Shown piece after piece: positions 2,909 to 63,505 of a stretch of 64,000 nucleotides of DNA. Within the stretch, counting starts at the first letter, position 1. Every line of letters starts with the position of its first letter. Origin of the DNA: Asparagopsis taxiformis (lineage: Eukaryota; Rhodophyta; Florideophyceae; Bonnemaisoniales; Bonnemaisoniaceae); the NCBI GenBank assembly GCA_030407315.1, contig JALQPE010002106.1, positions 61,730 through 125,729 of the forward strand. The letters run 5' to 3'. Both the position numbers and the translations under genes were made by a program. The notes beneath the pieces were generated by a model that ran no database searches, was not told where the DNA came from, and saw only the letters and a list, made by a program, of their open reading frames with translations.

Positions 2909-3170
2909 ATGCATCTACGCAATACCCAAGCTCGAGCCCATCTACCTGAACGAAGGTTCAAGGTAGGCGACAAGGTCATGGTGGCGAAGGGGAAGGCTTT
3001 TGGAACGACAAGTTGTCGCTGTTCGAAACCAAGTGGTACGGACCGTTTAAGGTCATCCACTCTAGCCACCCTCGGTACCTACTCGCTTCCGACCAAGCAA
3101 AGGTATCGCGCCGCCCCATTCATTCTCGACGTCTATTGCTCTTCCGTAGGCGTCCACTACATCTACTGCA
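2909..3170 (+). pseudogene. Ty3/gypsy integrase C-terminal remnant
   Basis: The first part reads RRFKVGDKVMVAKG, the typical start of the SH3-like C-terminal domain of Ty3/gypsy integrases. After about base 2997 the match continues in another frame (KWYGPFKVIH, then YLLAS), so one frameshift splits the domain. The catalytic core, reverse transcriptase and gag are absent. It is a fragment of an old element, next to a GGACGTCC repeat block on the left and converging on the H3-tail gene on the right. The family call rests on motif recognition only. Confidence 0.65.
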
Positions 3171-3338
3171 TTAAGTTTCCAATAGGGAAACCCTTCTTTC
3201 ACACTCCTTTTTATGCATAATCCCTTTTAATCATTCAACCCTTGTTCTACGCATGCATTACAATTCTAGATATGTCTATCCATTACTATCTACTCTATTC
3301 AATACGATCCATTTCCTTCTCTATCAATTCGTGCTGTT

Positions 3339-4799
3339 CTAGGACGGCCCAGCACCATCGACTTTCGCTTTGCGGACCTTCTCACGCTTCCTCATGCATT
3401 GGCGCTTCGCGCGCATCTCCTCTGGATTAGAACCCCCCCGTCGGACGCGTCGAAGGTCATCGAATGCTGAGAAATCCGATGACTTGCTTGTACTACAACA
3501 CAAGAAGAATGCCCGAGACTCAAGACTCATCACGAAGGCTTCAGAGGAGTCGTATATCAGACCAGGCTTGGTACGCGAGTCGATACAGATGGCGTGCTTT
3601 AGCCCATCTCGACTCCAAACCTGCACCACGTACACGTCCGGTTCCCTTGAAAGTTTCCCCCGCAACCACTCCCACTGCCTAGAGCGGGAATCTGGGGCCC
3701 CTAGATCGAAACGGGGAATCGCCACCCGGGGCAGAGTCACCGTCGAGGGAGCACGATCAGCGATGGCCTTCGAGACCGAACCAAAGTCCACGACGCTTGT
3801 ACAATAGCCACGAATAAGGCGTTCTTCTTCGACCCGGGCCAGGTTCCGACGGAAGAACCTATCGGCGGTTTCGAAATCGCATACGAGAGCGATACCATTG
3901 GCGGCCGCGGCAGGCAGGCAGTTATTGGTGAAGTCCTGCACTGGTACCACCAGGCGGTTCCGCGGGGTCCCCACGAAGAACTCAGGGGCTTCGGGGGAGG
4001 GCACCCGAGCCATGGCGACATTGAGTCGTTTCTTCTTGCCGAGATTCTTATAACACCAAGCGTTGATGCTGGCAATTAAACTCACCCGCGAGGGTTGACC
4101 ACTCCCTCGGGTCACAGGAGAGGGATTATCCTGCTCCTGGAGTGCCGCGTCGCGCTCCGCCGGTTCGGAGACCTGACGGAAAACCATGGTATACAGATCG
4201 ATTCGATGGCCGGTTCGTTCCCCTTCGGCGGAAGCGTAGAAGCAGCCTTCCAGTTCGCCGTTTTCACCGCCCTTCGACAACCAGATCTTCTCGATGATCC
4301 AATCGGTGTCTTCGGGGCATTCGGCGTACTTTTCAGTGTCACCGTGGGATTCAGTGAGACCGAGACGGCAAGCCATCTCCGCCGTAAGGATGGAGATGGC
4401 AGGATCGGAGGCGAATTCGACTATCTGAGGCCCGAAGAGGAACTCCAGTTCCCTGGCCGTCACTTGGCACGGATCGCGACGATTTCGGCCAAAGTCGACG
4501 ACGAAACGACCACGTTGGTCGGAGAAGCGGCGGATGTTCTGGACGTCTTCACGTCCGAACCAACGGAAGAGGTTCTGACGAATTCCCCGATGGGATTTGT
4601 CGTCGAAGTTAACCTCGTTGGCCCGCACGGGGACGGCTTCCCCAGGGCGATAGCGTACCTCCTGGCCGCCCTCGCGACGGTAGGTGCCAGAAGCAACGGG
4701 AGGGTCTCGTCTGGGGATCCGCGCCGCTCGAGCAGCTAGCTCCCGCCGTGGGGCAGTCCCCCCAGTCGACTTCGTTGCGGTCTGTTTCGTCTTGGCCAT
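3339..4799 (-). CDS. Histone H3 tail-mimic protein with C-terminal cysteine protease-like domain
   Basis: An intact 486-codon gene starting at ATG 4799. Residues 2-27 copy the histone H3 tail: AKTKQTATKSTGG, then APRRELAARAAR, identical to H3 at 19 of 26 positions counted by eye. RYRPG at 49-53 may correspond to the H3 RYRPG motif. The middle (70-250) is not recognised. The C-terminal half has the order expected of a papain-like cysteine protease: Gln288, Cys294 in NNCLPAAAAN, His402 in HAICIDS and Asp417 in IYDSSE. The last ~40 residues are very basic, possibly a nuclear signal. It converges on a broken Ty3 integrase tail, which suggests mobile DNA. Seen: the H3-like sequence and the intact frame. 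Inferred: protease activity and nuclear action. Confidence 0.75.
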   Translation of the reverse strand: MAKTKQTATKSTGGTAPRRELAARAARIPRRDPPVASGTYRREGGQEVRYRPGEAVPVRANEVNFDDKSHRGIRQNLFRWFGREDVQNIRRFSDQRGRFVVDFGRNRRDPCQVTARELEFLFGPQIVEFASDPAISILTAEMACRLGLTESHGDTEKYAECPEDTDWIIEKIWLSKGGENGELEGCFYASAEGERTGHRIDLYTMVFRQVSEPAERDAALQEQDNPSPVTRGSGQPSRVSLIASINAWCYKNLGKKKRLNVAMARVPSPEAPEFFVGTPRNRLVVPVQDFTNNCLPAAAANGIALVCDFETADRFFRRNLARVEEERLIRGYCTSVVDFGSVSKAIADRAPSTVTLPRVAIPRFDLGAPDSRSRQWEWLRGKLSREPDVYVVQVWSRDGLKHAICIDSRTKPGLIYDSSEAFVMSLESRAFFLCCSTSKSSDFSAFDDLRRVRRGGSNPEEMRAKRQCMRKREKVRKAKVDGAGPS

Positions 4800-4933
4800 C
4801 TCAATGGATCACCCGCCAGGTACCGAAAGGCCCACGTAAGCGAGATCTCAACAAATCGACGGCCGCGACTACGCAGGGTGCTCGGAGAGACGACCGAAGG
4901 GAAGGCGAGAGATGGGATGACTGCAAACGGACG

Positions 4934-5001
4934 TTTACTGTAAGGTATCGAGCTACAGTAAGCTACGCTATACTGTAAATTGTTTACAGTAATTACAGTG
5001 A
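4934..5001. promoter_or_regulatory. Clustered TACTGTAA-type motifs upstream of the H3-tail gene
   Basis: Five related 8-10 bp motifs (TTACTGTAAG, CTACAGTAAG, ATACTGTAAA, TTTACAGTAA, TTACAGTGA) occur in 68 bp, in both orientations, 135-200 bp upstream of the ATG at 4799. A short regularly placed motif at this position could be a binding site cluster. No experimental support is visible and it could also be a decayed foldback. Confidence 0.35.
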
Positions 5002-5286
5002 CGATGAGGCCAGTGTTGGAAGAAGGCTTGGAGTCCAGACCCACTCGGAGGAACTGCCGGCTTTTATACCGAGCGCAGTTTCAAACCTGCGAAATTAGAC
5101 CTCCTCGGCGCCTCGGTCTGGTCGGGGGGTCATGTGGAAATGACTTTTACAAGAAAAATTCTACAGGTAATTTGTACCAGAATTTTAATTAAGGGTTGGA
5201 TGGACGCCTGGAAAGTTCCGGACGTCCAACCGCTGGGAGTTAAATGCAGCTCTGAGCGGTGATAGAATAACCTAGAGGTAAGCTAG
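5002..5286. other. Spacer between the H3-tail gene and the PiggyBac element
   Basis: No gene seen. At 5200-5240 there is an imperfect inverted repeat with GGTTGGATGGACG against CGGACGTCCAACC, another member of the GGACGTCC theme of this window. Confidence 0.4.
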
Positions 5287-5322
5287 TGTCTATCGGACAA
5301 GTGGCCTCATATGAGGCCACTT
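5287..5322. repeat. Left terminal inverted repeat and 24-bp palindrome
   Basis: TGTCTATCGGACA at 5287-5299 pairs with 8088-8100. A perfect 24-bp palindrome centred on CATATG follows at 5299-5322; such subterminal palindromes can be transposase binding sites. Confidence 0.75.
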
Positions 5323-5399
5323 TTTACCACTGTAGTTTAAATTGAAAAAATAAACGAATAGCTCCAATTTTACCACTAGAAGACTCGCCGGCGAGATTA

Positions 5400-7589
5400 A
5401 TGATATGGCAGGGCAGAGTGAATGCTGAAATTTTAATCCTTCCATCAGCAAACTACGTCAACTCCATCTCGATCCTGAAATCACAAAAAATGGTGAAACC
5501 AGTTGATTGTCGCCAAGTTGTCGGAAACAGGGTTCTCGCCCCTGCCAGACAACTGACATATATCTCCAAATGTCGCAGGATGTATGGCGCCGGATGGAAG
5601 ACAAAGATGATATCCGGAACTGTCATTCGAGTCATTAAGGAGAGAGGAAACAAGCGAATGATGACATCTATCGAGGCTGAGTGGGAGCTGGCCGATGGTA
5701 ACAAGGTGACATCCCTGCGTCTCTGCAGTGTGAAGGCACCTGCAGGTGGTGAAGAAGACCGTGTGACCGAAGGAGGAGATCAAGCTCAAGACACCGGGAG
5801 TGACGGGAATGAGGCCGAAAAATCAGATGCAGTCACGCCGCAAGAGCGGGACTTGAGTACGAGTGTTAATACTCAGCCATGTGACACTGGGTCAACCGAT
5901 GAACCGGTTGTCATATGCAATGACGTGGAATGGATTGTATCTGATGTATCTATGCAAATGAATGGTTGGCGCCCCAATCGGTCGTGGAGGGTGATTGGGC
6001 CATTGGATGAGATAATATCTGAGGGGCACGGTCCATCAGATATGACACCATATGACTATTTCCAGTGGATGTTTCCGATGGGATTTTTAAGTACTATCGT
6101 GTCATACTCCAATTACGAGCTGGAAAAGCGGAATCTCAAATCGACCTCGCTGGGAGAGATTTTGAAATATTTTGGAGTCATTGTACTCATGTCACGATTT
6201 GAGTTCAGTGGTAGGCGCTCTCTCTGGAGTAGTCAATCCGGGACTAAATACATCCCCAGACCAATGCTCGGGCACATCATGTCACGCAAACGGTTTGAAG
6301 AGCTGAGGCAATACGTGACATACTCCAAGGTTCGTGACGAAACTGACCGGTGGGGTGTCATATCTGAGTTTATCACCGCCATCAATGACCACAGAAGCTC
6401 TCAGGTATTCCCTTCAGATTCTATATGTGTGGATGAGATTATGTCAAGGTGGTATGGTCTGGGAGGTGACTGGATCGATATCGGACTCCCACATTACGTC
6501 GCGATGGACCGTAAGCCTGAGAATGGATGTGAGCTGAAAACTGCATCATGTGGCAATAGTGGCATCATTCTCAGGATGGATGTTGTGATGTCAGCTGAGG
6601 AGACACGTGGAAAAGCATTCGAGTCCGAAACGACGCATGGTGCTGCCGTCACATTAAGGCTCGTCGAACCATGGTTTTATACTCATCGCCTCGTGTGTGC
6701 CGATTCATACTTTTCCTCTGTTGAAACGGCAGAAATACTCTTCAAGCATGGGCTACGTTTCACTGGTGTCGTCAAGAATGCTACAAAGGGATACCCGCTC
6801 CAGCATTTGTCCCACTTGGAAGTCACTGGAAAGGGTGAACACGTGTCTATGGTTGCTAAAGATAGAGATGGTCCGGATCTGATGGCAGTGATGTGGATCG
6901 ACCGTGACAGAAGGTACTTTATTAGTACAGCCGGTACTACTCAGCCTGGGACGCCAATATTCCGAGAGCGTTATCGAAGCAGGAATGGCAGGACATGGAA
7001 GGAGTAAATTGACATTCAGATCCCGCAAGTATGTGAAACATATTATGCGACGTGTTCGCAGGTGGACCGTCACAACCGATGTCGCCAAGATGACCTTATG
7101 CTGGAGAAGAAATTTGAGGTCAAAGAATGGTCGGCACGTGTCAACACGTCACTGTTGGCCATATGCGTCGTGGATGCCTGGAAGCTGTACTGTGGAGCCA
7201 TGCATAACAGGGGCAGGATGACACCTCATCAGTTCTATACCCAATTGGCTGAAGGACTGATTGACAACTCCATGGATGCAATTGGATTACGTCAGCGACA
7301 ATCAGATGCACCTGATGTGGAAGAGATGGAGAGCGGTAGTGGCATTGGAACCCATTTGACGCCGACTACTCGCACTCGCAGGACTTCCAATGGTAGGGAT
7401 AGCAATGCTATCTATCAAGGTCGTTGCGATATTTGCAAGGGAACGAAGAAGTCGAAGTTCTTATGCTCCACTTGCAAACGACTATACCGAAAGGATGTCT
7501 TTATCTGTCACCATCAGACAGGTCGTGATTGCTTTAGAAAGCATGTCGAGATGTGTCACGATCTTTCCTACGAAGGTCCTTTTTACTAA
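5400..7589 (+). pseudogene. PiggyBac transposase interrupted by one in-frame TAA
   Basis: A DDD-type transposase that cuts and pastes the surrounding element. With ATG 5400 as codon 1 (an alternative ATG is at 5490) the conserved blocks are PYDYFQWMFP near 217, the first catalytic Asp345 in CVDEIMSRW, Asp435 in CADSYFSS, and the third, Asp556, in QVDRHNR. A cysteine/histidine-rich zinc-binding domain (CDICKG, CSTCKR, then ICHH) lies at the C-terminus. One TAA (7005-7007) falls between the second and third Asp. The frame before and after it is the same and conserved sequence resumes at once, so there is no frameshift. It is either a young pseudogene or needs readthrough. Inverted ends at 5287 and 8100 frame it. 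Confidence 0.85.
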
Positions 7590-7856
7590 GTATGCTCTCT
7601 CTATGGGTTGTTTAAACGCCCTTTAGTCACGCATTGATATCCAAAATAGAAAAATAAGATACTCCTTTAGCTCCCTCCGATTCTGACTGGCGTTCTCGAC
7701 TTGCTCAGTAAACTTCTGCTTATGGCGGAATTCCCCTTTATGAAATGTCACCTTATACTGTCTCATGTTCAAGTGGGCGCGTAAGCATCCTAAAGCAGAA
7801 GTTGCAACTAAGAATCGGCGAGTTCTCCGAAGAGAATTTTCGAGCTGCCCAAGCAA

Positions 7857-7920
7857 CTCGGCGAGGAGTCGAACCTCCGCCCTCTGGCTTTCCCGAGAGG
7901 TGCCAACCACTCCGCCATGT
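7857..7920 (-). other. tRNA-like sequence (tRNA-Ser-like) inside the PiggyBac element
   Basis: On the minus strand TGGCGGAGTGG matches the A box and GGTTCGACTCC exactly matches the B box of an RNA polymerase III promoter, with tRNA-like spacing. Between them CCTCT and AGAGG could form an anticodon stem, but the loop would be 10 nt, and I cannot pair an acceptor stem. This is probably a tRNA pseudogene or the head of a tRNA-derived SINE rather than a working tRNA. Confidence 0.4.
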
Positions 7921-8043
7921 GAGGACATGTGTCCGAAAGGCAAGCAATGCTTTATACAATGCAATGCTTGCGTTAGAAGTTTTATAAAGGCGATATAAAG
8001 AGGGAATGCTAAATTCTAATAATTTCTAGTAGATTTTTTTTCT

Positions 8044-8100
8044 GCCTCATATGAGGCCAGGGTTGACCTCATATGAGGAAATTTTAATGTCCGATAGACA
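8044..8100. repeat. Right terminal inverted repeat with two subterminal palindromes
   Basis: TGTCCGATAGACA (8088-8100) is the inverse of the left end. Two CCTCATATGAGG palindromes lie just inside, at 8045-8056 and 8067-8078, whereas the left end has one. Confidence 0.75.
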
Positions 8101-8104
8101 CTAG

Positions 8105-9903
8105 ACTTAGTAAATTACATCTGTTCTACATTCCTATCTTTACACCGTTTTGACTCCTCGCCCGTGTACACGCGTAACAAACACCCTGTATTTTGTTAAA
8201 GAAAAGGGAATAATTTTTGTACTGAATAGTTTTGAAATGTTCGCGTATTTTCCTACTTGACGGACCTTTGATTAAAATATACAGATTTTTTATTTTAGTG
8301 TGTAATCTAGGAAATGACTCGATCTTTAAGGAAATACCCCGTATTTGAATTTGAGGTCTACTGTAATCGTATTACTGTAATATTGTGGTGATTATCGAGA
8401 ACGTTTCACTATGGGTAAATCGGTCACGGTCACGTCGCGCTTACCCCACCGTGGCACTACCGCATGCCTTGCTCAGGCGGAAGATTTGTTATGGGCCACT
8501 TTTGGCCCACTTGAGGAGTTTTCCTGAGGTGCCACTTGGCACTGGAATGGGCTCTCAGAAGATATTCTGGGCGCCGGTCGAGCGTTCATCATTTGTAAGG
8601 TGATTCCAGATTTAGATTCCCCTCCAAAATTTTCTTCATCACAACTCTGCCATGCACACACCAACACAACTACACGAAGGCGGTTTACTCAGGGGTCAGA
8701 AAATATGTAGTTTATGGCACAAACAATGAACCACTTATGTCATACTGGATAAAAGGGTTAATGCCTTTGCAGCTCTGACATAGAGTGTTGGAGCCTACGC
8801 TAAAGCACTACCAGCGTATATCTTCTGAATGGTCAACAATAGAAAAGCTCGTGGAAACCGTCCAGTGTCTCAAAACCCCGATATGTTCTTCGAGCAATGT
8901 CCAATCTCGAGAAAGCAGCTAATGACGATAATCTGAGTTTTCCCTTATAAGCGTCCGTCCATGTATTGTAACCAGGATTTGGGATCTTAGAGAAGTACCA
9001 AGATGCAACGATTTGCTGCAGGAAACGTAGACAAGCACATGAGATCACGGCATTCTGAATTTTTATCCGGGAGCGATATGGACTTTATCAAGTGGAATTT
9101 CTTTTGGAAGTGTATTCGCAGTATGGGAAGTTGGGCTCGCTTTCTCATGCTTGTGCATTCTTTCATAGTTGGAAGAATCTGTGCAGATGTGTGTCTTTTT
9201 CTTCTGGCGTGCCATATTACAGTTGCATATAGAGGCAGCGAATTGACCACTACGATTACAAGTTGGATAGCAGTGGGTGGAATTCAGGAGTGATAGTTGC
9301 ACACCATTCGACACGAAGCAGCTTTCCTGTGACGCTTTAAGGGATGACAAGGAAAGTAGTTGAATGGTTTGATGGACCGTTCATGGTTTCCACCGCTAGA
9401 TTCATGGTTGGAAAAGAGCGCTTGGAGGAAATTCGAGCTGGTGATTGCGATTTATGACACAAGCTTTGCAGCAGGCTCAGAGCCGACGGATGTATTTTGC
9501 TGGCACATATGCGAGCAGAACTACAGTAGGTCATTATGGAATAAATCTACAACAGTACAGTACAGTACATATTATAGAAGACTAAAATATAGATGGTGCT
9601 GCACTATCAGCAAATATATGGTTAAAGCAGTGAACAACGTTACACGGGAAGGGAATAGCTTCGAGACCGTCTTATATAACCAAGAAATGATATACAACTG
9701 CCAACTGTAGTAGCGTTGGTCTGATCCTTTATTCCAATAGACCGGAGCACCTCTGGTCTTGGCTGCACACAAATGAGCGCAAATGGCACCGTATATGTCG
9801 CTTGGTTTATCTCTCAAACTACCTCCATCAATCATCAGAATCAGTCAATACCAATCACATAATTTCCAATAACAAACCGCACATACGATACCAGCATATA
9901 TAT
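8105..9903. other. No intact gene; two weak coding scraps
   Basis: Around 9003-9070 (+) the sequence reads RFAAGNVDKHMRSRHSEF, like half of a C2H2 zinc finger. Around 9395-9530 (+) another scrap reads ERLEEIRAGDCD and, after a stop, RADGCILLAHMRAEL. Neither extends to a gene. They may be remnants of one decayed protein. Confidence 0.3.
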
Positions 9904-19336: not shown

Positions 19337-20502
19337 CTCGTGGTGTATTAGCTAGATGCCTACAGGGTACCCAGCCTTAGTAGTGAGGTTGGCGGTAGAG
19401 CAAACGAATCCAAAAGATTCACGCTGCTTTCGCGTTGGCGGTAAGCCAATAATGCACGTTAAATGGGAGGGTGCTCACGCGCTAGGCGTATCGATGGAGC
19501 AAGGGACGTAAAATATAGAGCCACGAAGCTGGTGAGAGCGTTGTCTCAAGAGGAGGGAATTTCGAACTGAGATAAACGGCAAGCCCGCGAGGTGCTGTGT
19601 CAATGGGGTCGTAAGTCCCATTAACTTTACGTTACCTTTTCAGGCTAGGCGCCCTCCGCTAGTCAGAGGGGCTTAAGTACTAGTAGTTAGTCTAAATAAA
19701 GCTACACTATTGGCTAGTGATTAGGTGTACATGTCCTACCACGCGGTGGTCTGCCCTGGTGGGGTCGTGTCAACATCCTATTCGATGACCCCGGTTCGGG
19801 AATGACCAATGGAAACAGCCTCGCTGTATCTAGCCCAAGTCAAGGGAATGGACCCACTGGGGCAACTCAAGACCCCACAAGGGGCAAATTTTAACTAAGC
19901 TGACTCAGCTAACTTTACACTGTAACACTAACAGTTGGTGATCTCGCGGGCTCCCGCAGTCGCCATAATCAGGGATCTGATTGATGCACCTAAGGATATT
20001 TATTCCTAACTGTCTACCTACCCTAAATGTTTACAGTGACTTAGATTAGTATAAAACGCCTCTGGATTAGCCAGAGTGCTTAACCTTTAGAGGTAACGTA
20101 AACTCACGTGGAATTTACGACTCCACTGAACAGTGTTTGCATTGCTCTATTCCATCCTTCCAGGACGAATTAGCTTTAGCTATACAGCTCGACGGGTTAC
20201 GTCTTTCGCTCCATCAATACGCACTTCGTGCGTGAGCACCCCCAACCTTCACCCGGCATTACCGGAAGACCTTTCGTGGTGTACTCGCCATTGGCGGTTG
20301 ACGCAAGATTCGCTTGCTCTACCACACTACCGAGGCTCGGGACACCTGTAGGGTGGTTTTGCCGCTTTGCGGATTTTCTACCTACTACATTGGTCTCTCG
20401 ACCTAGAATCTTACCGACATCTTAGCCGACCGGCGACACACCGAAACCACTCAAGAAGAGTAAACTCGTCGTTAGACGTGAGCTCATTGAACAAGAGTAG
20501 AA
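19337..20502. other. 5' untranslated leader of the Ty3 element
   Basis: No coding frame is supported. The primer binding site should lie at the start; TGGTGTATTAGC at 19341 begins with the required TGG but I cannot name the tRNA. Confidence 0.45.
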
Positions 20503-22451
20503 GTGATGCCATCGGACAAGTCTCCGGAACATTCTGACTCCGAGTCAGACCCCATCGGGAGAGGTTCAACCCAAGAATTCGTCACTGAGGAAGGAGTCTT
20601 CCGACTTATGCATGAACATGCAGACAAGATTCTCAATGATAAATTGAAAGAGATGCGTGAGGAGATCAGCCAAGCTGTTGAGGACACCCTCGATGACCGA
20701 CACGGCGATCTCGTCTCAACTCTCGTGGATAACACGATTGATTTGCTTGCACCCAAACTGAAAGCCATTTGCCACGAAGTGGTAGATGAGAAAGAAGTAG
20801 AAGTCTTTTCGGGAGCGTGGAAGTCTATCCGTGTGGATTTTCTACAACGGGTTATCCGGCTTGAAAAGAAGGTCACTGACCTACAAAGGAGAAGCTACGC
20901 CAGATCTTCTTCCGGTGATCAGCACCAAGGGCTTTGGAACAAACAGGACGGCACTGCCGAGAACAGCGTAGCTGTGGAAGCCGAGAAGCTCGACAAGGTC
21001 GTGGACGTCACCAGACGTTTGTCGGATCGAGTGGACTTACTCAGCGAGTCTCTCGCCCGGCCGGTACCAAGTAAAAATCCCAACGGGGGTGACCCAGTTT
21101 TCGGGTTTGATTCACCTTCGAATCCATTTGAAACAGAAGAAGGACCCCTGGAACCAGGCTTAACTCCTTTAAGAGCCCGCGAACCCGCGTTCGATCGTGT
21201 AGTATCTTACCGGTATTACCGGTTACAAGACTAGTCATCATCGACGGAAGCTCCGAACGGAAAGAGTAGAAGTCTCTACAAGATAACAGAAAAGATACGG
21301 AACTTCAATGCGTCTTTAACGCCGTTCGATGGAACGCAACCCATCGATATACTTCGATTCCTTGCGGAGTACCAAGATGCTTGTGACTCCTGCGGAGTAC
21401 CAGAAGGAATTGCAACAAAGTTGCTACGTTATTTCCTTGAAGGAGATGCGCAACGATTCATCGCGTCCGAATCTCGGAAAAGGAAGTTGCTAAATCAACT
21501 GCACCAGCAGATAACGTGGCCACAGACCGTCCATGCTTTACTTTCTCGTTATGCAACGGATATAGTTTTGGATGACGCCTACGACGCGGTCACGCGTATT
21601 AAACAAGAACCTCACGAAGATGAGGCAGAATACGTCGACAGACTGCAAGAGGCCGCACTGTTGTGTGCCAACGTTTTCTCTGAAAGAGACCTGGTAAACT
21701 ACTACCTCAAAGGGCTACGCCCGGGGGTAAAAGACACCGTGAAGGTCACCGTTGGCCGTGATGGGGAAGACTTCCTTGCCATACGCAACTTGCGTATTGA
21801 TTGAATCTGGCAAAAGGACTCGGGGATTCCCTAAGAGCCACCACCGCCGACACGGCTAAACCCAAGATGTACCCTAGTAGGGAGCTTGCCGAAAGGAAAC
21901 GCAAAGCGTTATTAGCTACCATGGCTAATGAAGACCTCGGAATGAGGAGAGAAATGTCTACGTCGCAGACGTTACAACCACTGACTGTGGGTCCGAACGC
22001 GGAGACACCGCCGATGGAGGTACCGCCCCTCACAGAGGAACATGGGAGTCTTGCCGAGTCCATGATCCCGAAGGGAGCGGTCAATTGGCGCTGCTCCGGA
22101 TGCCGGCAACCCGGTCACGTGCTGTACACATGCCCGTACCTCTCCCGTTCCGTGGGAATGTATTTCGCTTTCGCGAACTATGCATACCAGCAAGAGCCGG
22201 AACAAGTCATGCGCCGACAGCAACGGCAATTCGACAAGTTCAAGAAGAAGCAGGTCCCTGCAAAGACGATTATCCAACGGCAGAAACCGTTTCCACGTAT
22301 GGTCGCGTTTGCCGAGGACGACCCCGTCGCTAACCAAGCCAATCCGGTTTCCGGACTTCAACGAACTATAGGATCGTCTCTCTCGGCAGAAAACGCAGTT
22401 GATGCCCTGGCATCTTCAGATGAATCATCCGACACGTCGTCGGAGAACTAA
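20503..22451 (+). pseudogene. gag: Ty3 gag (capsid and zinc knuckle), broken
   Basis: Gag forms the particle that packages element RNA. The N-terminal part (from ATG 20503) is acidic and coiled-coil-like, the capsid-like region follows with FDGTQPIDILRF and LLRYFLEGDA, and a zinc knuckle of the CX2CX4HX4C type (CSGCRQPGHVLYTC) lies near 22095. A TAG at 21232-21234 interrupts the first part without changing frame. A frameshift at about 21800 moves the reading into another frame, which ends at TAA 22449-22451. The protease frame begins ~15 bp later. Confidence 0.8.
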
Positions 22452-22465
22452 CCGGGGGGAGTGAG

Positions 22466-23158
22466 GTGTCGCGCTCCCGCCAGGAGGTGGAACAGCTTCG
22501 CAGTAGGGTAGACATCTCGCCATCCCCACCTCCACAGGGTGGAACGGAGATACCAACGCGGTTGAAACGTACTACCCAGACACCAACAGGGGATATCCCT
22601 TATCCCCTCCCCTCTCAGCCAAAGGCTGCATGTCTTTTGAAGGCAGCCCACTACGTGGTTTTAGGTTCCATCGGAATATCCGAGACACTTCTAACGCCTA
22701 TGCGTATGGTTATGGACACCGGTTCCGGTCCTTCGGTCGTCCAAGAATCAACCTTACCCAAGGGATGGAAGGCCTATGCCGCGCAGACCGGGAACATCCC
22801 TCAACTGGCAGACGCTAATGGTAATCCTCTCAGGATAACGGGAAGAATCAAACTGCTAATACAGCTAGGCCGAAAGCTTCTGGACGCAGAATTATTTGTA
22901 GCACCTAAGCTGGCAGTACCAGTTATCCTGGGAACAGGTATCATGAACCCACATGTAGATGCAATTCGATGCCGCGCTCAGCGCATTGATGTACACGATG
23001 GTGGATCGATCGCCATCCTGCTTATGCAGAATGTGAGTAAAATGAACAACTCTTCTTCTTCTTGCTATATACATGATTCAAGCCCTTCGCAGGGTACTGA
23101 TTTGGACCACCAGTCAAACCGGATCCGGCTAGCAAGAGAAATCACCCTTCCCCCATGA
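22466..23158 (+). pseudogene. Ty3 aspartic protease region
   Basis: The retroviral-type aspartic protease that cleaves Gag-Pol. The active-site motif is VMDTGSGPSVV and the flap/second-half motif VILGTGIMNPHVDA, giving the normal single-domain (dimeric) arrangement. It is in a different frame from both gag and the reverse transcriptase that follows, and ends at TGA 23156-23158. Confidence 0.75.
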
Positions 23159-24933
23159 GTCAAGTAACCGCATCGGTTGTCTGTGCTGGGGGCGGACTAA
23201 GCCTCCCCGAGGCGAAGGAAAAACTTTTCCACCGACATCGGATCTTAATGCCGAACGGCATTGTCGAAATCATTCCTCGAACAGTCTTCACTGCTATTCT
23301 AACGAATTTTGGTTCAGCAGAAAGATACCTCCCGAAGGGGACGGTTGTTGGTATTGCTCATCGAGCACCCGGCACAGCCGATCGAAAGTTTCCCAGTGAG
23401 TTATCCTCTTCCGGTACAAACCGCATCATCAGTTTGACCAACCCGGCGACGGGAACCAAGGAGAAAGAGAATCCGCAATGGCGGGAGGATGTATCCTTGG
23501 AACACCTTCAACAACCGCAGTTGAAGGATAAAATTATAGCGATGCTATCGCAACATGAGTACATGTGGGACGGGTCTCTTGGAGACATTAGAGAAACCGA
23601 GCATCGTATCGATTTAATCGAAGGAAGTCGACCTCGTCGACAGCAACCATACCGGATGGGACCCTTGAGAAGGGAGTTAGAAAGTAAGGAGATCATCTCC
23701 ATGCTAGAGAAAGGGGTCATCGAACCCTCGAATTCTGAGTGGGCTAGCCCAGTTGTCTTGGTACCCAAGAAGGATGGTAAGCTACGCTTTTGAGTTGGCT
23801 ACCGCCGTCTCAACGACATCACAATATCGGACGCTTATCCGTTGCCTCGTATGGACGATTGTATAGACTCCTTAGGAGATGCACGCGTGTTCACCACGCT
23901 TGATTGCAACTCAGGCTATTGGCAGATACCCGTTGCCTCCGAGGATCGGGATAAGACGGCCTTTACGTCGCACCTTGGAACATATAGATTTAAAAGATTG
24001 CCCTTCGGGCTGAAGAATGCACCCGCCACGTTCCAACGTGCTATCGATATTATCTTAAGCAGCGTACGCTGGCAAACTTGTCTCATCTAACTTGACGACG
24101 TCATCGTCTTCTCACGGAGTGAGGAAGAACACCTTCATCAGGTGGATCAGGTATTCACACTGTTGAGGAAGGCAGGGGTAAGCCTAAAGCTGGCCAAGTG
24201 CCACTTCTTCGAAGCGAAGGTAGATTAACTTGGACATGTGGTTATGCCAGGTAAGCTGGCGGTCGCCCAAACGGCGATGGACGCTATTGCGAAAGCAACT
24301 TTTCCGACCACACCTACGCAAATGCGTTCTTTCCTTGGGAGCTGCGGGGTCTTCCGCCGTTTCGTTAAAGGGTACGCGGATATCTCCCATCCCCTCAACG
24401 CGATGTTGACTAAGGAAAACCTACCGAGCTTCGGTTCAATGCCTCCAACAGAGGAACAACGCCACGCGTTTGACAAACTCAAAGAATCCTTGGTGCAACC
24501 ACCAATATTGGCTCTGCCAAGGGTGGGTAAACCCTACATCGTAGACACGGACGCTTCTGCGTATCAGATAGGGTGTGCGCTGTTGCAACAGCAGGATGAC
24601 GACGACTATCGTCCTGTAGGATACTGGTCGCGGACCTTAACCAAACCCGAACGGGGATATTCTCCGACGGAGCGCGAGTGTCTCGCCGTAGTATGGGCAG
24701 TCACTACCCTGAGACCATACCTTGAACAAACAAAGTTTGTGGTACGATCCGATCTTAACGCGTTGCGTTGGTTGATGAACATCACCGACCCATCCGGGCG
24801 CCTTTGCCGGTGGCGACTCCGCCTTTCAGAATTTGACTACACCATAGTCTATCGCCCCGGTAGGGTTCATCAAGTACCAGACGCGTTATCGCGTGTTGAA
24901 AAAGGAAGGGTTAGACCCACATCCAGTGGATGA
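23155..24933 (+). pseudogene. Ty3 reverse transcriptase and RNase H, three in-frame stops
   Basis: The reverse transcriptase starts with SEWASPVVLVPKKDG, then DAYPLPRMDD and TLDCNSGYWQIP; the catalytic LDDV box follows at ~24090. RNase H begins at YIVDTDASAYQIGCAL with the first catalytic Asp. All of this lies in one frame, interrupted only by TGA at 23791-23793 (expected Cys), TAA at 24088-24090 (expected Tyr just before LDDV) and a TAA near 24226 (expected Tyr before LGHVV). The YLDD catalytic box is therefore destroyed. A frameshift near 24900 leads into the integrase. Confidence 0.85.
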
Positions 24934-26791
24934 CGAAATTCCCACACTCTTCGCGTATGACCTTACCCAGGAGGTACCTGTTACAGAAGAGATGAACCCT
25001 TGGTTCTTTGATGTGCTTATCGCGCGGAATCCCGCTGACACACCCCCAACGGGAATAAACCCAGCTGTCCTAACGACACGCCCTCAGACAGAGGGTTCCG
25101 AACCGATAACACTCAACGAGTGGATTGAGGAGCAACACTCTAATGACTTCTGTCAACAAGTATTGACCAGTCAGAAGCCTGACTCTCTCTTCTTTGAAGA
25201 TGACCAAGGTGTCTTGCGACGTAAATCCAATCTTGACAATTCCCATCAAGTGGTTGTACCAAGAACACTCAGGCCCCGCCTGTTGAAGATGTGTCATCAC
25301 GACGTGCTCACGGGTCACCCCGGACAAAACCGTATGTATGAGACCATGCGTCTCTCGTACTACTGGCCAGCCATGGCCGCGGATATTACCGCTACGGTTG
25401 AACGCTGTTAGGTTTGCGCTAGAAACCGACTCAAGTTGCGTAGACAAGCTAATACCTTGAAACTATTCACAGCTTCAGCACCGCTGGAAGAAGTCTCTAT
25501 AGACTTACTAGGCCCTCTGCCTAAAACAAAGAAGGGTAACCTTCACCTTTTAGTGATTACCTGTCGCTTCACGAGGCTTACACAGGTTGTACCATTACGC
25601 AGTATCACTGCTTACCATGTGGCTGTCGCCTTCTGCACCCACTGGGTTTTCAAGTACGGTCCCCCTAGGACGTTGCTCTCCGATAATGGACCTCAGTTTG
25701 CTTCCAAACTTTTCCAGGCTGTTTGCCTGCAACTTGGAACAAAGAACCTGTTCACAACAACCTATCACCCACAGACCAACGGTCAGGTGGAACGGTATAA
25801 CCGTACGTTGTTGAACATGTTACGCAACGACGTCAATGAAAACCAGAATGACTGGGACGTGTACGCACCAGCGTTGACGTACGCGTATAATACGCACGTG
25901 CATCGCACGACAGGGACGACACCCTTTGACCTTATCCTAAGTAGACCACCACCCCCTTATTCCCTTCATCACTCGACGAGAATACGGCAAAAACCGGACG
26001 CTTTCTTGAAACAGGACTTCCTGCAAAGGATTGCTCAAGCAATTGAGAAGGCCGGTCAACGGCTACAAGCCACGCAAGCGCGTTATAAACCGGACTTTGA
26101 CCGGAGGATCCGGAAGACCAAACGACTCCTTCAGGAGGGTGACTACGTCTACCTTGACAACCCCGAAGTACGGGAACGAAACAAGTTGACGCCGTTGGCG
26201 CAAGGACCTTTTAAGGTTACTAAAGACGGTAGGCGTACCGTTCATATTGAACGTGATGGACTTGTCGAACAAGTTAGCCACGACCGTGTGACGTATGCGC
26301 CACAACCTGAACAGGAAACAACGCACCCACGGTTAACTTCTAGCGGAGCATCCGTACCTGCGGCAAGAACCGACGATCAAACCGCCAACACGGTGCAGAG
26401 TATGGCGGAAGAACGACTACGTCGCGTGGCATCAAGCCCGCAGCGCGTACCTCTTCAAACCGGACAACCCCCAGGTCACCCTGTAACCAAGCCTTTGCCA
26501 TCCCGCTCCGCGGTTGAAGGTGATTTCTTAACTAACACACCGAGTATCGGTCCGAGACGAACCGTCTTTGAGGAGGGGCCCAGGCCGACATACGTCGTAA
26601 TAACGACGCTGCTTCACAGCCGATGTCCACTCAAATTGACCTCGCCGAGGATGAAACTCTTGACACAATGCAGGAACCTGCTTCCCAAGACGCCAACAAG
26701 ACGTTCTCCCGGCTACGCCGATCAACCCAGAAGGCATCAACCGGAACAAGTCCGAAGAAGAATAGTCGCTCTCGTCGACAAACAAGAATAA
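24893..26791 (+). pseudogene. Ty3 integrase
   Basis: Inserts element cDNA into chromosomes. It shows the HHCC zinc domain (HHDVLTGHPGQ, then ERC and VCARN with a TAG between, at 25409-25411), the DDE core (SIDLLGPLP, LLSDNGPQFASK, QVERYNRTLL) and the C-terminal SH3-like part (LQEGDYVYLDNPEV, GPFKVTKDG). One frame holds throughout, with only the TAG inside the HHCC region. The DDE residues are all present. The frame shifts again before the chromodomain. Confidence 0.85.
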
Positions 26792-27165
26792 GCCGACCGC
26801 AAGGCATGGAAATATCCCAAGAAGCCACTTCGGCTGAGCCGATAAACCCTGCGGGTGACACTGCTAACACCGGAAGCAGACGACGCTCGTCGAGCCATGA
26901 GGTTATACCCGAACCGGGAACTGTCTCCCAGAACCTGGAACCACCTGAAGAACAGGAATTCGCCATAGACGATTTGATCGATTATGTCGTCGACGACGAT
27001 CAGGAGGAATGGTTCCTCGTGAAGTGGTACGGGTACCGTGACCCTACGTGGACGCAACGGCACAACGCGCCAGACGAGCAAATATCTCGGTACTTCCGGA
27101 AAGCTGACCGCCAAGCGGGTAAGAAAACGTCTAAACGACGAACGGTCAAAAGGCGTGGTAAGTAG
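26623..27165 (+). pseudogene. Chromodomain C-terminal to the Ty3 integrase
   Basis: FAIDDLIDYVV, EEWFLVKWYGY and PTWTQRHNA, then QISRYFR, give the expected order of a chromodomain: beta strands with the aromatic/KWYGY segment and a C-terminal helix. Such domains on chromovirus integrases bind histone marks (commonly H3K9 methylation) and steer insertion into heterochromatin. It is in a different frame from the integrase, so the fusion is broken in this copy. A basic tail (KKTSKRRTVKRRGK) ends the frame. Confidence 0.75.
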
Positions 27166-28397: not shown

Positions 28398-29228
28398 TTA
28401 GCGGCATAAATTGCACCACACCTTCCACATATCGGCGTCCGGATTGGCCAGGAATACATGACTATAAGGGGCAGCTACTATAGAGAATCCATCTGCTCCG
28501 CTCGACATCATGAAATATGATGGAGACTCGGTAGGTCCGGCAACACGACTCGTTGATACTTTGAAGTCCGTGTGCCCATCCTGGTCCGCAGCCCCATCTG
28601 CTGTAAGAAGCAGCCGCAATCCTGTCTTCGGGAAGAAGACAGGATCCCCACCCTCCATTCCCAACTTCAAGAACTCCGCACGAACACCAAGAGCAAGCTC
28701 TGCCACCAACTTGTTCTTATACATATCCAAATTCCCCTCCTCCAGCTTATCGCACAACTCACGCCACGGCAGAGAGAGGCGCCCACGACCACCATCGATG
28801 CGGTCCTTCGCATCACCCACGTTGTGGATGAACTGCCACGGAGAAGGATCGAAGCCGGGCTTTGCGAAAGCTGGCGGCTCGTCCTGTGCTTCCCTGTCGT
28901 CATCATTAGAATCAGACTGCTGGGAGGGTTTTTCAACCTCCTCAACCAGCGGGAACTGCCTAGCGAAGTGACCGAACAGCTCATGCGTCGCACTCCCAGC
29001 CGTGGACGATTCCAATAAGCGTTCCAAAACAATAACCCCCAAGTTCTCCAGCAACGCCCGCTTCACCGCAAAGTACTGTTCCACCACCGTTTCCTCGGCT
29101 CCCGGCGATGCAGCTACCTGGAATGCTGCCGCCCTCATTTCCGCCCGAACCGTCTCCACCGTCGTACTTTCCATATAGTACTTCATCCGGCTGCCAGACG
29201 CAATTGCGCTGGGGAGAACGGCGGCCAC
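28398..29228 (-). pseudogene. 2OG-Fe(II) oxygenase-like domain, module copy A (3'-truncated)
   Basis: Paralogue of the C-terminal domain of the gene at 33663-35837: SRMKYY, THELF, NKLV then EL, FPKTGLRLLLTADG, HTDFKV, SPSYFMM, GADGF and SHVFL all align. The HxD iron ligands are present (H219, D221 counting from the frame's first codon), but the protein ends shortly after and lacks the distal His and the Arg that binds 2-oxoglutarate in this fold. The end coincides with the start of retroelement DNA at ~28400, so the 3' part was probably lost when elements inserted. Its own upstream part is at 29432-30247, separated by a stop and a frame change. Confidence 0.75.
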
Positions 29229-29431
29229 ATTCTCATCGACGATACTGTCAGGAATGGGATTCTACTGGGCGTCGTCGAACTGGAGAACGGCTCCCGAGAA
29301 CGACCTCTGGAAGCCGACTTGGATTTCTTTGACGACGACTTTGATGAAGTCTCACCGAGCCTTCTCTTTTTGGGAGAAGGCTCGGGCGTCGCAGAAGGCG
29401 CATCAAAGTTACGCTTCCCGAGGATGGAGCT

Positions 29432-30247
29432 TTAACCCGCATCCTCGGGGGCGCTCTCCAGTTCGACGACCTCAACAGCACCACCCGCCGTTCCACTACG
29501 ACCGGAACGACTCGCTTGCAGGCGGGTGCTCCTTCTGGGCATCACTTTCCTCCCAGAAGTTTCCACTCCGGACGGTGCAGAATCACTGACTTCAATGACA
29601 TCTTCGTCAGGATCTGCACCGCCCTTCGCGCTGCTGCCTCCCTGTCCACCCGACTTGTCCTCGACCACATTCTCGGGAGTAGGGCCCTCCGTCGAAATCC
29701 TCGCAACCGTCTTCTGTCCAACCCCAGTAGATGGTGAAGGGACAAAACTGTCATTGCTGGAGCTTCCCGAACTTCTAGCAGATGCAGAACGGGAAGATTC
29801 GACAGCGGGGGCCAGAGCAGCAGGGAGCTGCTCGGCAGCCGGAGTCGCAGGCTCAGGCTGCGAAGCCGGTGAGACCTGCTCCTGCGCGGCTTGGACAGGA
29901 CGGTTGGGGGTACCAGTCCCAGCGTGGGAAACTGGACCAGAGCGTTCGCTGCCATCCAGGGGACCAGGTGCAGTCGGCTTGACCGGGGTCACCGCAGGGG
30001 AGGATGCCGACACGGCAGGGGTAGAGACAGGAACAGGGGCAACCTCGGAATCGCTGGAAGATTCCAGTTGAGGTGGTGGGGGCAAAGGGATGGAGGATGA
30101 AGGGATGGGCAAGGAATTGGAAGAGGAAGGGATGGGGGCATCATCACCACATGTGGCTAGGAGCGCAGCATGTGGGATGTCTGGGTACATCGCGTGAAAG
30201 CGTTTCCGCATAATCATGTCGCGGTACCCAGTGACGCGCAGGAGCAT
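29432..30247 (-). pseudogene. Disordered N-terminal part of the copy A oxygenase gene
   Basis: From ATG 30247 the frame is Pro/Ser/Ala/Val-rich (IPSSSNSLPIPSSSIPLPP, PVSTPAVSASSP) and then basic (RRSTRLQASRSGRSG), matching in position and style the long disordered part of the intact copy B gene. It ends at a TAA (29432-29434). Downstream in the same frame a further basic stretch with KKRRLGETSS is readable, aligning with KKRRREETSA of copy B, before a frame change into the oxygenase domain. A probable solo LTR (30260-30948) sits directly upstream. Confidence 0.6.
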
Positions 30248-30259
30248 TTTCCTGGCGTC

Positions 30260-30948
30260 TGTAGGACTTAACTGGCGCTTAGACGTAATGACTTAGGTAG
30301 TCGTCCAAACGTCTCGAGTAGTCGCCGGAGAGGCGGCTTCGCACTCCTGGCTTTTGTTAACCCGAAGCGGTAAAGCGTAGTCGCACTGCCGACGACCGTC
30401 CACTGGCCTCGACTCGGTAGGTGGTAGAGCGGTTTGAATCGGAAGGATCTTGATCACCCTTTGAGGAAAATCCACCAGGGCGACACACGAGCCAACGGTG
30501 GCTAGGTCGGATCACGGAAACAGGCGGGCGTTTTAGCGGTTAGTCAACTCAGAACGGACGGCGCGACACACGGTGTATGTCGGTTCCGAGCACTCACGCT
30601 TAGACGAAACTGTTGACCTTGATCAGCCTCACACGCGTAGACGTCGTGTTGGCGTTCCGTGGTAACCCGGGGACCACGGTACGTTACGCACCCACGCCGT
30701 GATGCGGAACGGAACAATCCCTAAGACGGAAACGATTGATACGAGTGTCGTAAACGGTACGTCACCTCCAGGGTTAACTTGGATCGGTACCTTAGAGGGG
30801 GTTTGTTACCTTTTAATCATTGGAGAAGGGTCACTACTTGTAATTGCGTACCGGGGCCGAGTGGTCCGTCCCGAGGGCCCAATGGGGCGGGCCGCGCCGG
30901 CGGCCGCGGTGGTATTGCAATACGTGTACTACGACCAATAACCCTACA
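30260..30948. mobile_element. Probable solo LTR interrupting the copy A oxygenase gene
   Basis: A 689-bp block starting TGTAGGAC, like the Ty3 LTRs, and ending CCCTACA, so TGTAGG and CCTACA form matching inverted ends. It has the CG-rich composition of the retroelement DNA and no gene. It splits copy A between the part at 31046-31320 and the part at 29432-30247, which are adjacent in copy B. No clear target duplication is visible. Confidence 0.5.
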
Positions 30949-31045
30949 CGTGGCGCTCGCCATGCTCGCATGTGCGCCCGCCAATTCTACATAATTTCGA
31001 AAATTTCCAAATTACGCAAGGAAACTGCTGGTTTCGAAACGATAG

Positions 31046-31320
31046 CTACTGGCGGATGAATTGAGTGCTCGCCCGTTTCAGCTCTTGTCCCACAGCGTCC
31101 TTCCCGAAGACAGACTTCTTACGGGGAAAAATGTTCTCCGACTTGTAACCATCGGGGGGGGGGCCTTCCTTGGGACGGAAGTCTGCCCAACACCCCTTCT
31201 TGGGGACCATCTGAGCAAGAACTTCGACAACGCGATCCATTCCTGCCCAATGGTACCAACCGAGTATGTTTTCAGCCCGGCCAGCCGACGGCTACAAGTG
31301 TAGCGCGCCGTCATCTCAAG
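31046..31320 (-). pseudogene. First segment of the copy A oxygenase gene
   Basis: The frame reads GMDRVVEVLAQMVPKKG and later SENIFPRKKSVFGKD, weakly but collinearly matching DMEEVVRKWLNSA and KNGMFTNSFFDK of the copy B gene. It overlaps the end of the ParB-like frame in the -1 register, exactly as in copy B. A run of ten Gs (31154-31163) lies inside it and could be a slippage site. It stops at 31046 before the probable solo LTR. Confidence 0.5.
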
Positions 31321-32097
31321 GATGAAACACTTGTGGGCGTCCGGAGCACTCCTGAACGACCCATTGAACAACAAGTTCACCGTACATCCAGCCAGATCCT
31401 CAGTGGAAGAACTGCACGAACTCCGGCCTATTCTGGATGCTCGACCAGTATTTGAAAGCAGGGCTTTCAATAGTATTGAAACCTCGGGCGATGGAGACGT
31501 AGCGCATGAGCTGTCTCGGACGAATCCAGCTCAGTGCTTTCCGTTCTTTAATGTATTGAGCGGTCGGCTCGATCTTCTTCCTGCCAAGCTGTGGATATTG
31601 ATGAACTCCATCACAGAGCACATATTGTCAGCAACTGTTACCTCGCTGACATTGAGGGTGTGGAAGTTCATCAGCCGTGAAAGCGGGGGTACTTCTTCGG
31701 AACAGAAGACATCCCGGCCAAGCCGAGTCGGTGGGAGGAGAAAGTCGACTGGAATGGTTCCAAATCGACGGTAAATGTCTGAACTGACAAACTCCTCCCA
31801 CTCTGGACTGTCCTTTGCAGGAGCAGGTCCAGCCGACTCGAGAATGGCCTTCAACGCGGTCACTCGGTGAGATCCATCGACGTATTGCAGTCGGACTTTG
31901 GCATTGGAATCAATCACCTCGCCAACGGGCACGCGTGAAGCAATCACGGAAAATCCCTGAGTGAGAAACGTTTTCTTCCACTCATCAACGCGATGCGGCC
32001 TGACCACCCTGGACACGACTGCCGGAGGAGAAACATCCAGGGGGGAAATGAAGACTGGAATGTTTCGGCAGCTCTCCGGACTTATGTCGTAGTCCAT
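31078..32097 (-). pseudogene. ParB-like DGSHR-domain protein, module copy A (frameshifted)
   Basis: Paralogue of 35765-36811. From ATG 32097: VVSRVVRPHRVDEW, YVDGSHRVTAL, VTVADNMCSVMEF; then in a shifted frame (around 31575) YVSIARGFN and KYWSSI; then in the first frame again FNGSFRS and CFILEMTA. Copy B shows the same blocks in a single frame, so two frameshifts broke this copy. The DGSHR motif (74-78) is the hallmark of ParB/sulfiredoxin-like domains. A possible extra N-terminal piece (MIIASGSVDLAED, from ATG ~32230) lies in yet another frame. Confidence 0.65.
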
Positions 32098-33237
32098 CCA
32101 CTGGGCACTGTGCCAGGGTAGGCCAGCCTGGTGCTGCGGAGAGGCTTGTTCGGTACGATGTCACGAGCGTTGTGATCATCGACCTTCTCCGCATCCTCTG
32201 CCAAGTCAACACTACCGGACGCGATGATCATGTCCGGAGCAGGCGAGTCAGGCAGAGGAGCACCAGATCCCTCGACGGCTGGCGCCGCTTCGGCAGATTG
32301 AGCCGGAAGCGGAGTTGCGGGAACGCCAGCGTCGATTGAAGGGACAGCCGCGGGATCGGAAGCCGAAGGGGGGAGGGGACGGGCTTAGGTGCTGGGCTGA
32401 GCTGGGTCAGCGCTGCAGCAGCTTCGCAAACGTCCATAGGGACAGGGGGCTAGAGAAGGAGTGCGAGAAGGAGTGGGAGAATCGTTGTCACGGCGGCTGG
32501 CAGAGCGCACCTAGCGGTCGAAAGCGTTGGGGGATTGTTGAGCCATTGCTTTGATGAATGTTTGACAAACGAAGAGTGAAAAATTGAGAAAGAGAGAAGA
32601 AGATCTGAACGACAAGCTGTTTTGCCGCGTAAGCTGAGTGAGATAGGCGAAACTCAGATAACTGACACATTCCTATTAGTATACACCCTGGTAATGATAT
32701 TCAGCGGTCGACCAATCCGAACCTTCCACATCACTTCTCGTCCGACAATTACAGCTCAGGCAGTTTACCAAGGTGCATGAAATATTTTCTTACCACTGCC
32801 ATAGTCTACACATACTGCTGCCTTCATACTTCTGCATGCCTACCCTTCCATCTTTCTTCCATCTTTCTCTACCGTGCTGGGCTTAGAGCATGCTCTGTGC
32901 ACATCTGACTTACTTAATATCATTGTATACTTAGAAACTAGAATAATAATTACATCACTAGAGTACACTGCAAATGTTAGTAACTATGGTTGGTGTGGTA
33001 CACAACACCCTACCTCCTTCATGAGTAAACTTTGCGCACAGAACCGTTCAATATCAGGTAGTGCAGCCAGCGCAAACCAGGTTTGCACGAAGCAGAGTGC
33101 TCCCCAGAGCCGTCAACAGCCGTCCAAACCATCGTTGTAAGATGTTCCCGGCTCCACACTTCCCTTCTCATCCTTCCCAAGGTGGGCAACGGACGAAACT
33201 CCCAACCGCTTACAGCCGAAGCAGTTTACCAGGGATG
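32098..33237. other. No intact gene; promoter side of copy A
   Basis: 32230-32560 (-) has Ala/Pro/Ser-rich readable pieces (SAEAAPAVEGSGAPLP) that may be a decayed N-terminus of the ParB-like copy A gene. The remainder up to 33237 shows no gene. Confidence 0.35.
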
Positions 33238-33415
33238 CTTACAGCAAAGTCATCGTTACGTTGACTTTGCTGTAAGGAAAGGTTTGATTACAGTGGTGAG
33301 AAAATTTTCCCGGGTAAAACAATCAGCAAGAATTTTTACCCGGTAAAAAATTGTGGCTGCTGTAATGATTTGATTTCTTACAGCAAAGTCATCGTAACGA
33401 TGACTTTGCTGTCAG
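33238..33415. repeat. Nested foldback (inverted-repeat) element
   Basis: Two near-identical 39-bp palindromic segments (33238-33276 and 33377-33415), each made of ACAGCAAAGTCATCGT and its inverse. Between them lie further inverted pairs: TTTGATTACAG with CTGTAATGATTTGA, and TTTTCCCGGGTAAAA with TTTTTACCCGGTAAAA. The whole could fold into one long hairpin; a MITE or foldback transposon is likely. Confidence 0.65.
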
Positions 33416-33662
33416 CACTCCAGCGGAACTGCATCATCTGTAAGCCTTCCTCACCTCAATGGTGCAGCCGAAGACGACTGCGACATTACCTTGTTCTATT
33501 CTAGTAGTGCCCGCCATAGTTTCCTCCCCTTCTCATATTAAATTGAGTATTGTATATCTCCTGACCCGTATACATACCCAAACGTCATGTACTAGCCTAA
33601 GTTTCATCGTTTACTTGAAGGCGGCCTTGATGCCTGCCATAGAATGCTATTAAGGACTAATT
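33416..33662. other. Spacer downstream of module copy B
   Basis: No gene or repeat seen. AT-rich stretch next to the stop codon at 33663. Confidence 0.4.
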
Positions 33663-36811: not shown

Positions 36812-37213
36812 TGTAATCCCTGCAATCTCAGTTCGTTCAATCGGTTCTCTGTTCAAATGTTGTGTAGAAGATGAAATCCACAATTGTGGTACCTCCGAGT
36901 GCGCTTCCCGTCTCTCAGCTTCCTCTCATATACTGTCCGGACAAGACATCCCCTACCTACCTTCAGTCCTGATGAACCTTACGCTGCACCCGCTCAGCAC
37001 CTCTGACTCTACCTGATCCTGATACCTCCACAAAGCGTTTAGACCTTTCCATCGATCTACACCTAATAGTATGTACCTCTAGCGCATATAATGCAATCGA
37101 ACCCGTTTAGCTCACCACGTCAATTATCATGCATATTCCAACAACCTATTTCATCCACACTCTCCACCTCGCTTCTTCTTCCATACCATTGATTCCTATC
37201 AATCGATTCTACG
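36812..37213. other. Upstream spacer of module copy B
   Basis: No gene. Probably contains the promoter of the ParB-like gene, but no TATA box is clear. Confidence 0.35.
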
Positions 37214-63504: not shown

Positions 63505-63505
63505 G

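Follow-up and report, generated by a model that had tools for sequence, protein, structure and literature searches.

Why a gene that lies in mobile DNA, and whose product is otherwise not a histone, should begin with a near-copy of the histone H3 N-terminal tail is the question raised by a locus near one end of the window (the whole 64,000-nucleotide stretch of Asparagopsis taxiformis DNA that was analysed). The reverse strand from 4799 to 3339 is a single open frame of 486 codons plus stop, the N-terminal start of which reads MAKTKQTATKSTGGTAPRRELAARAARIPRRD. The features of this gene, which belongs to an element family with two subfamilies (A and B), are as follows.

3339..4799, reverse strand: accessory gene, encoding an H3-like tail, a middle region, a C-terminal domain and a basic C-terminus (open reading frame; 94 own-genome matches; dN/dS; third-codon-position excess of differences)
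4716..4799, reverse strand: residues 1-28, histone H3-like N-terminal tail MAKTKQTATKSTGGTAPRRELAARAARI (19/26 identities, z 8.9; tail present in both subfamilies)
5062..5068, reverse strand: candidate promoter TATAAAA of the antisense gene, 269 bases upstream of the ATG and outside the LTR (copy scan, sequence)
3363..3416, reverse strand: lysine/arginine-rich C-terminus, residues 462-479, candidate nuclear localisation signal picked out by eye (basic in subfamilies A and B)
3594..3920, reverse strand: Cys294-His402 span of the accessory protein (Cys294, His402 and Asp407/Asp417 invariant in seven aligned sequences)

An in-frame TGA lies 12 bases upstream of the ATG at 4799, indicating that the tail begins directly after the methionine, and the start context TGA-TCC-ATT-GAG-ATG is common to 19 of 20 scanned copies; in copy L040 the start codon is altered. 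TATAAA is present between -260 and -269 in 18 of the 20 copies, is lacking in L047 and was left unplaced in L040. A forward-strand open reading frame at 4080-4739 was rejected as a real gene because, in five copies, the frame of the antisense gene is the only stop-free one of the six, and the codon-position bias fits this same frame.

The initial annotation's claim of 19 identities to histone H3 among the 26 positions of residues 2-27, beginning right after the methionine, is upheld both by the upstream TGA and by a BLOSUM62 score over 27 positions of 94, compared with a mean of 1.6 (sd 10.4, maximum 57) for 100,000 shuffles of the same residues. Five tails of the element family give z values of 8.9-9.6 against H3 (100,000 shuffles each), and by this test the imitation of H3 at the N-terminus exceeds chance; histone H3 is also the best match of the protein among PDB chains (phmmer, E 3.6e-7). 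The remainder of the product, as the initial annotation also had it, is not a histone: comparison of the window protein with Pfam (E<=10) and with NCBIfam (E<=0.1) gave no family for it, and no Pfam histone match indicates a histone fold after the tail. Past residue 28 subfamily A is perhaps weakly H3-like, best at the motif RYRPG, the score of its extension against H3 28-136 being matched by 37 and 108 of 3000 shuffles in two copies, and that against H3 28-60 by 115 and 158, whereas in subfamily B, for which 2123 and 2565 of 3000 shuffles reach the score, the extension is absent. Capture of a complete H3 was rejected on these grounds. Amongst the histone genes of the host itself, the H3 gene on contig C578 (L012) has an intron inside codon G44, at RYRPG, with exon 1 ending in this motif, and contig C2491 (L013-L014) bears a divergent H3-like gene, 56-69% identical and matching only from residue 29 on, that is possibly of the centromeric type.

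The gene is an antisense accessory gene of a Ty3/gypsy LTR retrotransposon that is 7.03 kb long and has LTRs of 232 bp, and it occupies the interval separating pol from the 3' LTR. The copy in the window is a truncated remnant spanning 2909-5286, as established by alignment of 20 copies with their flanks, and is truncated at one end by a piggyBac-type element and at the other by a further repeat. Around the gene, the following features were recognised.

2909..3170, forward strand: remnant of the 3' end of Ty3/gypsy pol (integrase C-terminus), convergent with the accessory gene; its right boundary is approximate (alignment with intact copies; Pfam on the Pol of copy L037)
5133..5286, reverse strand: remnant of the 3' LTR, 232 bp when intact (LTR pairs, copy alignment; inner end by base counting)
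5298..8106, forward strand: neighbouring piggyBac-type element that truncates the LTR and is separate from the accessory gene (DDE_Tnp_1_7, E 3.2e-38)

Where the element is intact, the gene and a Ty3/gypsy Pol converge tail to tail, the gene being placed between pol and the LTR, and in L037 Pfam places the Pol domains in the order protease-reverse transcriptase-RNase H-integrase, which is that of Ty3/gypsy. The LTRs begin with TG and end with CA (by eye) and occur as direct pairs in at least 12 contigs (40 of 112 candidates scored); eight of the 12 pairs listed span 7,026-7,035 bases end to end, the remaining spans being 6,116 (C743), 6,849 (C2551), 6,934 (C273) and 7,804 (C2230), and on C2689, C2495 and C1607 both LTRs are 100% identical to the query. 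A 1556-codon pol frame, which is probably Gag-Pol, is found at nine or more places among the best 86 of 4159 Pol candidates, and several copies are >99.8% identical across 6 kb; taken together, these two observations indicate that the family has moved recently. Nineteen of the 20 aligned A copies extend beyond the pol stop, the exception being L047. The gene therefore lies in mobile DNA, as originally proposed, and specifically in a multi-copy Ty3/gypsy element. The piggyBac transposase was rejected as a part of this element, being a separate repeat that also occurs inside another copy of it, L040, in the form of a relative 98.75% identical to the one in the window.

Other parts of the window contain repeats of their own. 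A separate Ty3/gypsy element at 20491-27165 (forward strand) comprises gag, RNase H and integrase, with a weak chromodomain match (E 0.0016, below the cut-off) at its end. On the reverse strand, several frames within 28398-36925 (e.g. 28398-29261, 33663-35939) look related by eye, in the manner of a repeated gene family, and have no confident Pfam match. A VWA protein encoded in the window gave 42 hits, and the three of these whose names reveal an organism belong to red algae (Chondrus crispus and Gracilaria domingensis, 34-37% identity). At 62799-64000 (reverse strand) a DNA methylase frame (N6_N4_Mtase, E 1.2e-11) is followed by a stretch that appears SET-like by eye, with no Pfam SET match on the frame. 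A SET search of the genome, in which the best 150 of 1661 candidates were scored, returned about 140 near-alike matches (33-36 bits) in frames of up to 1180 codons; these would seem to represent a mobile element of very high copy number that carries a SET domain and is perhaps linked to a DNA methylase.

Searching the organism's own genome (141 Mb, 3156 contigs) with the 486-residue protein gave 94 matches. With H3 as query at E<=10, 56 places were found, comprising six H3-gene stretches, 49 tails of the element family and one unrelated weak match; many of the tail matches, taken singly, are weak, with E values as high as 0.37, and their inclusion in the count is based on their also matching the element protein. 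Subfamilies A and B are identical at 194 of 471 aligned residues and the tail is present in both, so that homologues in other mobile copies do keep it, which the initial annotation had named as the finding that would support its claim. Genes of subfamily B lie on 14 contigs (matches of at least 69% identity), in at least seven of which Pol pieces are found opposite and downstream of the gene, 46-54% identical to those of A (best 86 of 4159 candidates); two of these seven, C910 and C2821, do not differ in their values and probably represent a single locus that has been duplicated. Further Pol relatives, 52% identical, on C2018, C806, C1771, C953 and C704 have no copy of the accessory gene among the genome matches listed, suggesting that the gene may be dispensable in some relatives. 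A 486-residue relative that is 93-94% identical, with the tail kept, is encoded on an ENA contig. Protein-database searches with the element family, in each of which about 8,000 candidates were scored, gave P0001 as the only match, and a scan of IMG/VR found no relative.

The accessory protein is under purifying selection: dN/dS is 0.14-0.32 in 21 pairs drawn from seven copies, these pairs being non-independent, and the differences between the window and L037 fall at codon positions 1, 2 and 3 in 13, 17 and 72 cases, respectively. Between A and B, 18 of 26 residues are identical in the tail, compared with 175 of 444 in the remainder (Fisher p 0.0027), and the tail is the best-conserved 26-residue stretch of the protein, its value being reached by 2 of 446 such windows, both of which overlap it. 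At tail positions where the two subfamilies have the same residue, identical codons are used in 5 of 18 cases, and four tails match the DNA of the host H3 gene at 52-54 of 84 bases. What has been preserved in the two diverged subfamilies is accordingly the amino-acid sequence of the tail, the codons having been scrambled, and retention of the tail in both indicates that it was acquired before they separated. The initial annotation had offered a mobile element or a recent chimera as the source of the displayed tail; a non-histone gene of a mobile element it is, but a recent chimera it is not, given that the tail is older than the split and its codons have been randomised.

The positions kept across H3, A and B are A1, T3, Q5, T6, A7, S10-G13, P16, R17, L20, A21 and A24-R26. 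None of the six lysines K4, K9, K14, K18, K23 and K27 is kept in both subfamilies, compared with 16-17 of 21 other positions (p 0.0007-0.0016), in a test that was devised after inspection of the sequences and whose three A and two B tails amount to two lineages. Position 27 is isoleucine in these three A tails and arginine in the two B tails, and beyond it the sequence departs from H3 (IPRRD, RRSS). Subfamily A is not lysine-free, retaining K4 and K9 together with a lysine at 2 and, in many copies, at 8; the two B tails read carry N4 and R9, and display of methyl-K4 or methyl-K9 was rejected on that account as a function common to both subfamilies. More generally, each H3 tail lysine is lost in one subfamily or the other, which argues against the reading of any single methyl-lysine as the common function and points toward a decoy.

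We therefore consider a model, to which the sequence features lend about an even chance of being right, in which the antisense accessory protein imitates a free H3 N-terminal tail and acts as a decoy for host chromatin factors. The gene would be transcribed from its own promoter, with the TATA at -269, and the protein would enter the nucleus by means of its basic C-terminus. Removal of the methionine would expose the tail, A-[KR]-T-x-Q-T-A-x-x-S-T-G-G-x-x-P-R-x-x-L-A-x-x-A-A-R, which could then keep H3-tail-binding proteins of the host occupied, serving as a decoy presumably not open to the marking that H3 undergoes. In the most specific version, a host silencing enzyme such as PRC2 would be blocked or diverted, PRC2 standing out as the most specific candidate through position 27, where I (in A) or R (in B) takes the place of K behind an intact A-A-R.

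This version draws additionally on an EZH-type gene in the host and on the presence of H3K27me3 on the repeats of a unicellular red alga. An EZH-type CXC domain is found above the cut-off in the genome (E 2.8e-4), within a 1399-codon frame (C317) that also contains a SET domain, in a search whose CXC control matched 0 of 14 genomes; a Pre-SET search of the genome found none, its control likewise matching 0 of 14 genomes. EZHIP and K27-substituted H3-like peptides inhibit PRC2, and the oncohistones H3K27M and H3K27I have a non-lysine residue at 27 after A-A-R, as does the accessory tail. K27M and K27I prevent methylation of K27 by PRC2 (PMC13068663), and H3K27me3 in the red alga C. merolae is found predominantly on repeats, covering as much as 50% of repetitive elements (PMC5405695). 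Unlike the oncohistones, however, the accessory protein has no histone core, its sequence diverges beyond position 27, and at 27 itself R is found in subfamily B; PRC2 inhibition is put forward as a candidate activity.

Several other explanations of the tail have to be weighed against a decoy. H3 tails are import signals that act as nuclear localisation sequences, and the tail is basic in both subfamilies, as would be expected were it mainly a nuclear import or histone-chaperone handle that borrows this property of H3. We nevertheless consider such a handle unlikely, as the conserved positions are mostly non-basic (Q5, T6, A7, S10, T11, G12, G13, P16, L20, A21, A24, A25) whilst the lysines drift, and both subfamilies have a separate KR-rich C-terminus. 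The sequence evidence for a decoy would serve equally well for a tether that brings the protein, and perhaps the pre-integration complex, to H3-tail binders and so steers integration or transcription without poisoning these factors; some Ty3/gypsy elements steer their integration with chromodomains. The accessory protein lies outside the pol frame, however, with no link to integrase seen, and A and B have no H3 lysine in common, and a tether also appears improbable to us.

It is rather doubtful that the tail serves as bait for a cysteine peptidase in the C-terminal domain, the targets of which would be tail-gripping proteins or H3 tails themselves. The cysteine, histidine and aspartate concerned (Cys294, His402, and Asp407 or Asp417) are invariant in seven aligned sequences including one B copy, in a pattern that we take, as a motif guess, to resemble the triad of papain-type cysteine peptidases, and in a low-confidence model the predicted strand order after the Cys helix is compatible with this. 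Neither Pfam (at E<=10) nor NCBIfam nevertheless recognises the window protein; seven C-terminal pieces compared with Pfam gave only an unrelated CSS-motif match in two (best E 0.059), a C-terminal profile compared with the PDB picked up four designed TIM barrels by way of their repeats, plus a single further chain (E 2.1), and the AlphaFold models are unreliable (mean pLDDT 39.6 and 41.7). That the tail is the fading and now functionless relic of a captured H3 exon would fit the weak similarity past residue 28 in A, which is best at RYRPG, where exon 1 of one host H3 gene ends; this extension is absent in B, however, and no other part of the protein is as well conserved as the tail despite its scrambled codons, which would not be expected of a relic, making this explanation very improbable. 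There is, finally, a negligible chance of a misassembly, or of host H3 sequence joined to a repeat. The initial annotation had allowed for such a junction at 4716-4799, and it is excluded by the occurrence of the gene at dozens of places and of the tail at 49, by the 93-94% identical protein on the ENA contig, and by the low identity of the tail DNA to host H3.

Precedents exist for the constituent parts of the proposed arrangement, both for antisense pol-3' LTR genes and for short histone mimics of viruses. The aORF-3R genes of Ty3/gypsy elements (maize Grande gene23, rice RIRE2, Silene Retand and PvRetro13) are, according to PMC7264820, likewise positioned between pol and the 3' LTR on the opposite strand, the likeness being one of position and orientation. 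In that source, gene23 of Grande is expressed from a promoter of its own, situated upstream, and its product is nuclear, and the roles of the Ty3/gypsy antisense accessory genes are given as undetermined (PMC7264820). For the accessory gene considered here, the TATA at -269 and the basic C-terminus are hints of a similar promoter and a nuclear product. According to PMC7264820, no clear similarity of aORF-3R products to other proteins had been described, except for an SMC domain in PvRetro13, whereas the product considered here has an H3 tail at its N-terminus.

Viral histone mimics also copy part of the H3 tail, those described in PMC10208167 being influenza NS1 (ARSK), SARS-CoV-2 ORF8 (ARKS), adenovirus protein VII (AKKRS) and the HDV antigen (KXXR); these are motifs of four to five residues, whereas the copy found here is of about 26 residues, is placed exactly at the N-terminus and belongs to a retrotransposon. 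Retrotransposons of dinoflagellates and Klebsormidium that have captured a DNA methyltransferase represent a further case, according to PMC5890265, of chromatin silencing being enlisted by a retroelement, with purifying selection acting on the captured function (Ka/Ks < 0.2 for the Klebsormidium gypsy element). The captured methyltransferase is, however, an enzyme within the sense Pol polyprotein (PMC5890265), in contrast to the antisense imitation of a histone tail considered here. In the literature searched, which comprised best-ranked results and few subscription papers, we found no report of a transposon-encoded H3 tail, or of an antisense pol-3' LTR gene combined with a histone mimic.

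More broadly, and as a tentative possibility suggested by the sequences, these genes may represent an ancient class of transposon anti-silencing proteins, encoded antisense in Ty3/gypsy elements, in which an N-terminal H3 tail with its modifiable lysines replaced would hold silencing enzymes (PRC2 via the K27 position, or other factors that grip the H3 tail) on a substrate that cannot be marked. The N-terminus of the accessory gene product points to its likely partners, namely proteins that handle the H3 tail, and its role can be tested directly with a peptide. Should the decoy model be correct, histone mimicry would reach beyond the short motifs of viruses to include a tail-length copy that a transposon has retained, and there would be a hint that red-algal elements fight silencing based on H3.
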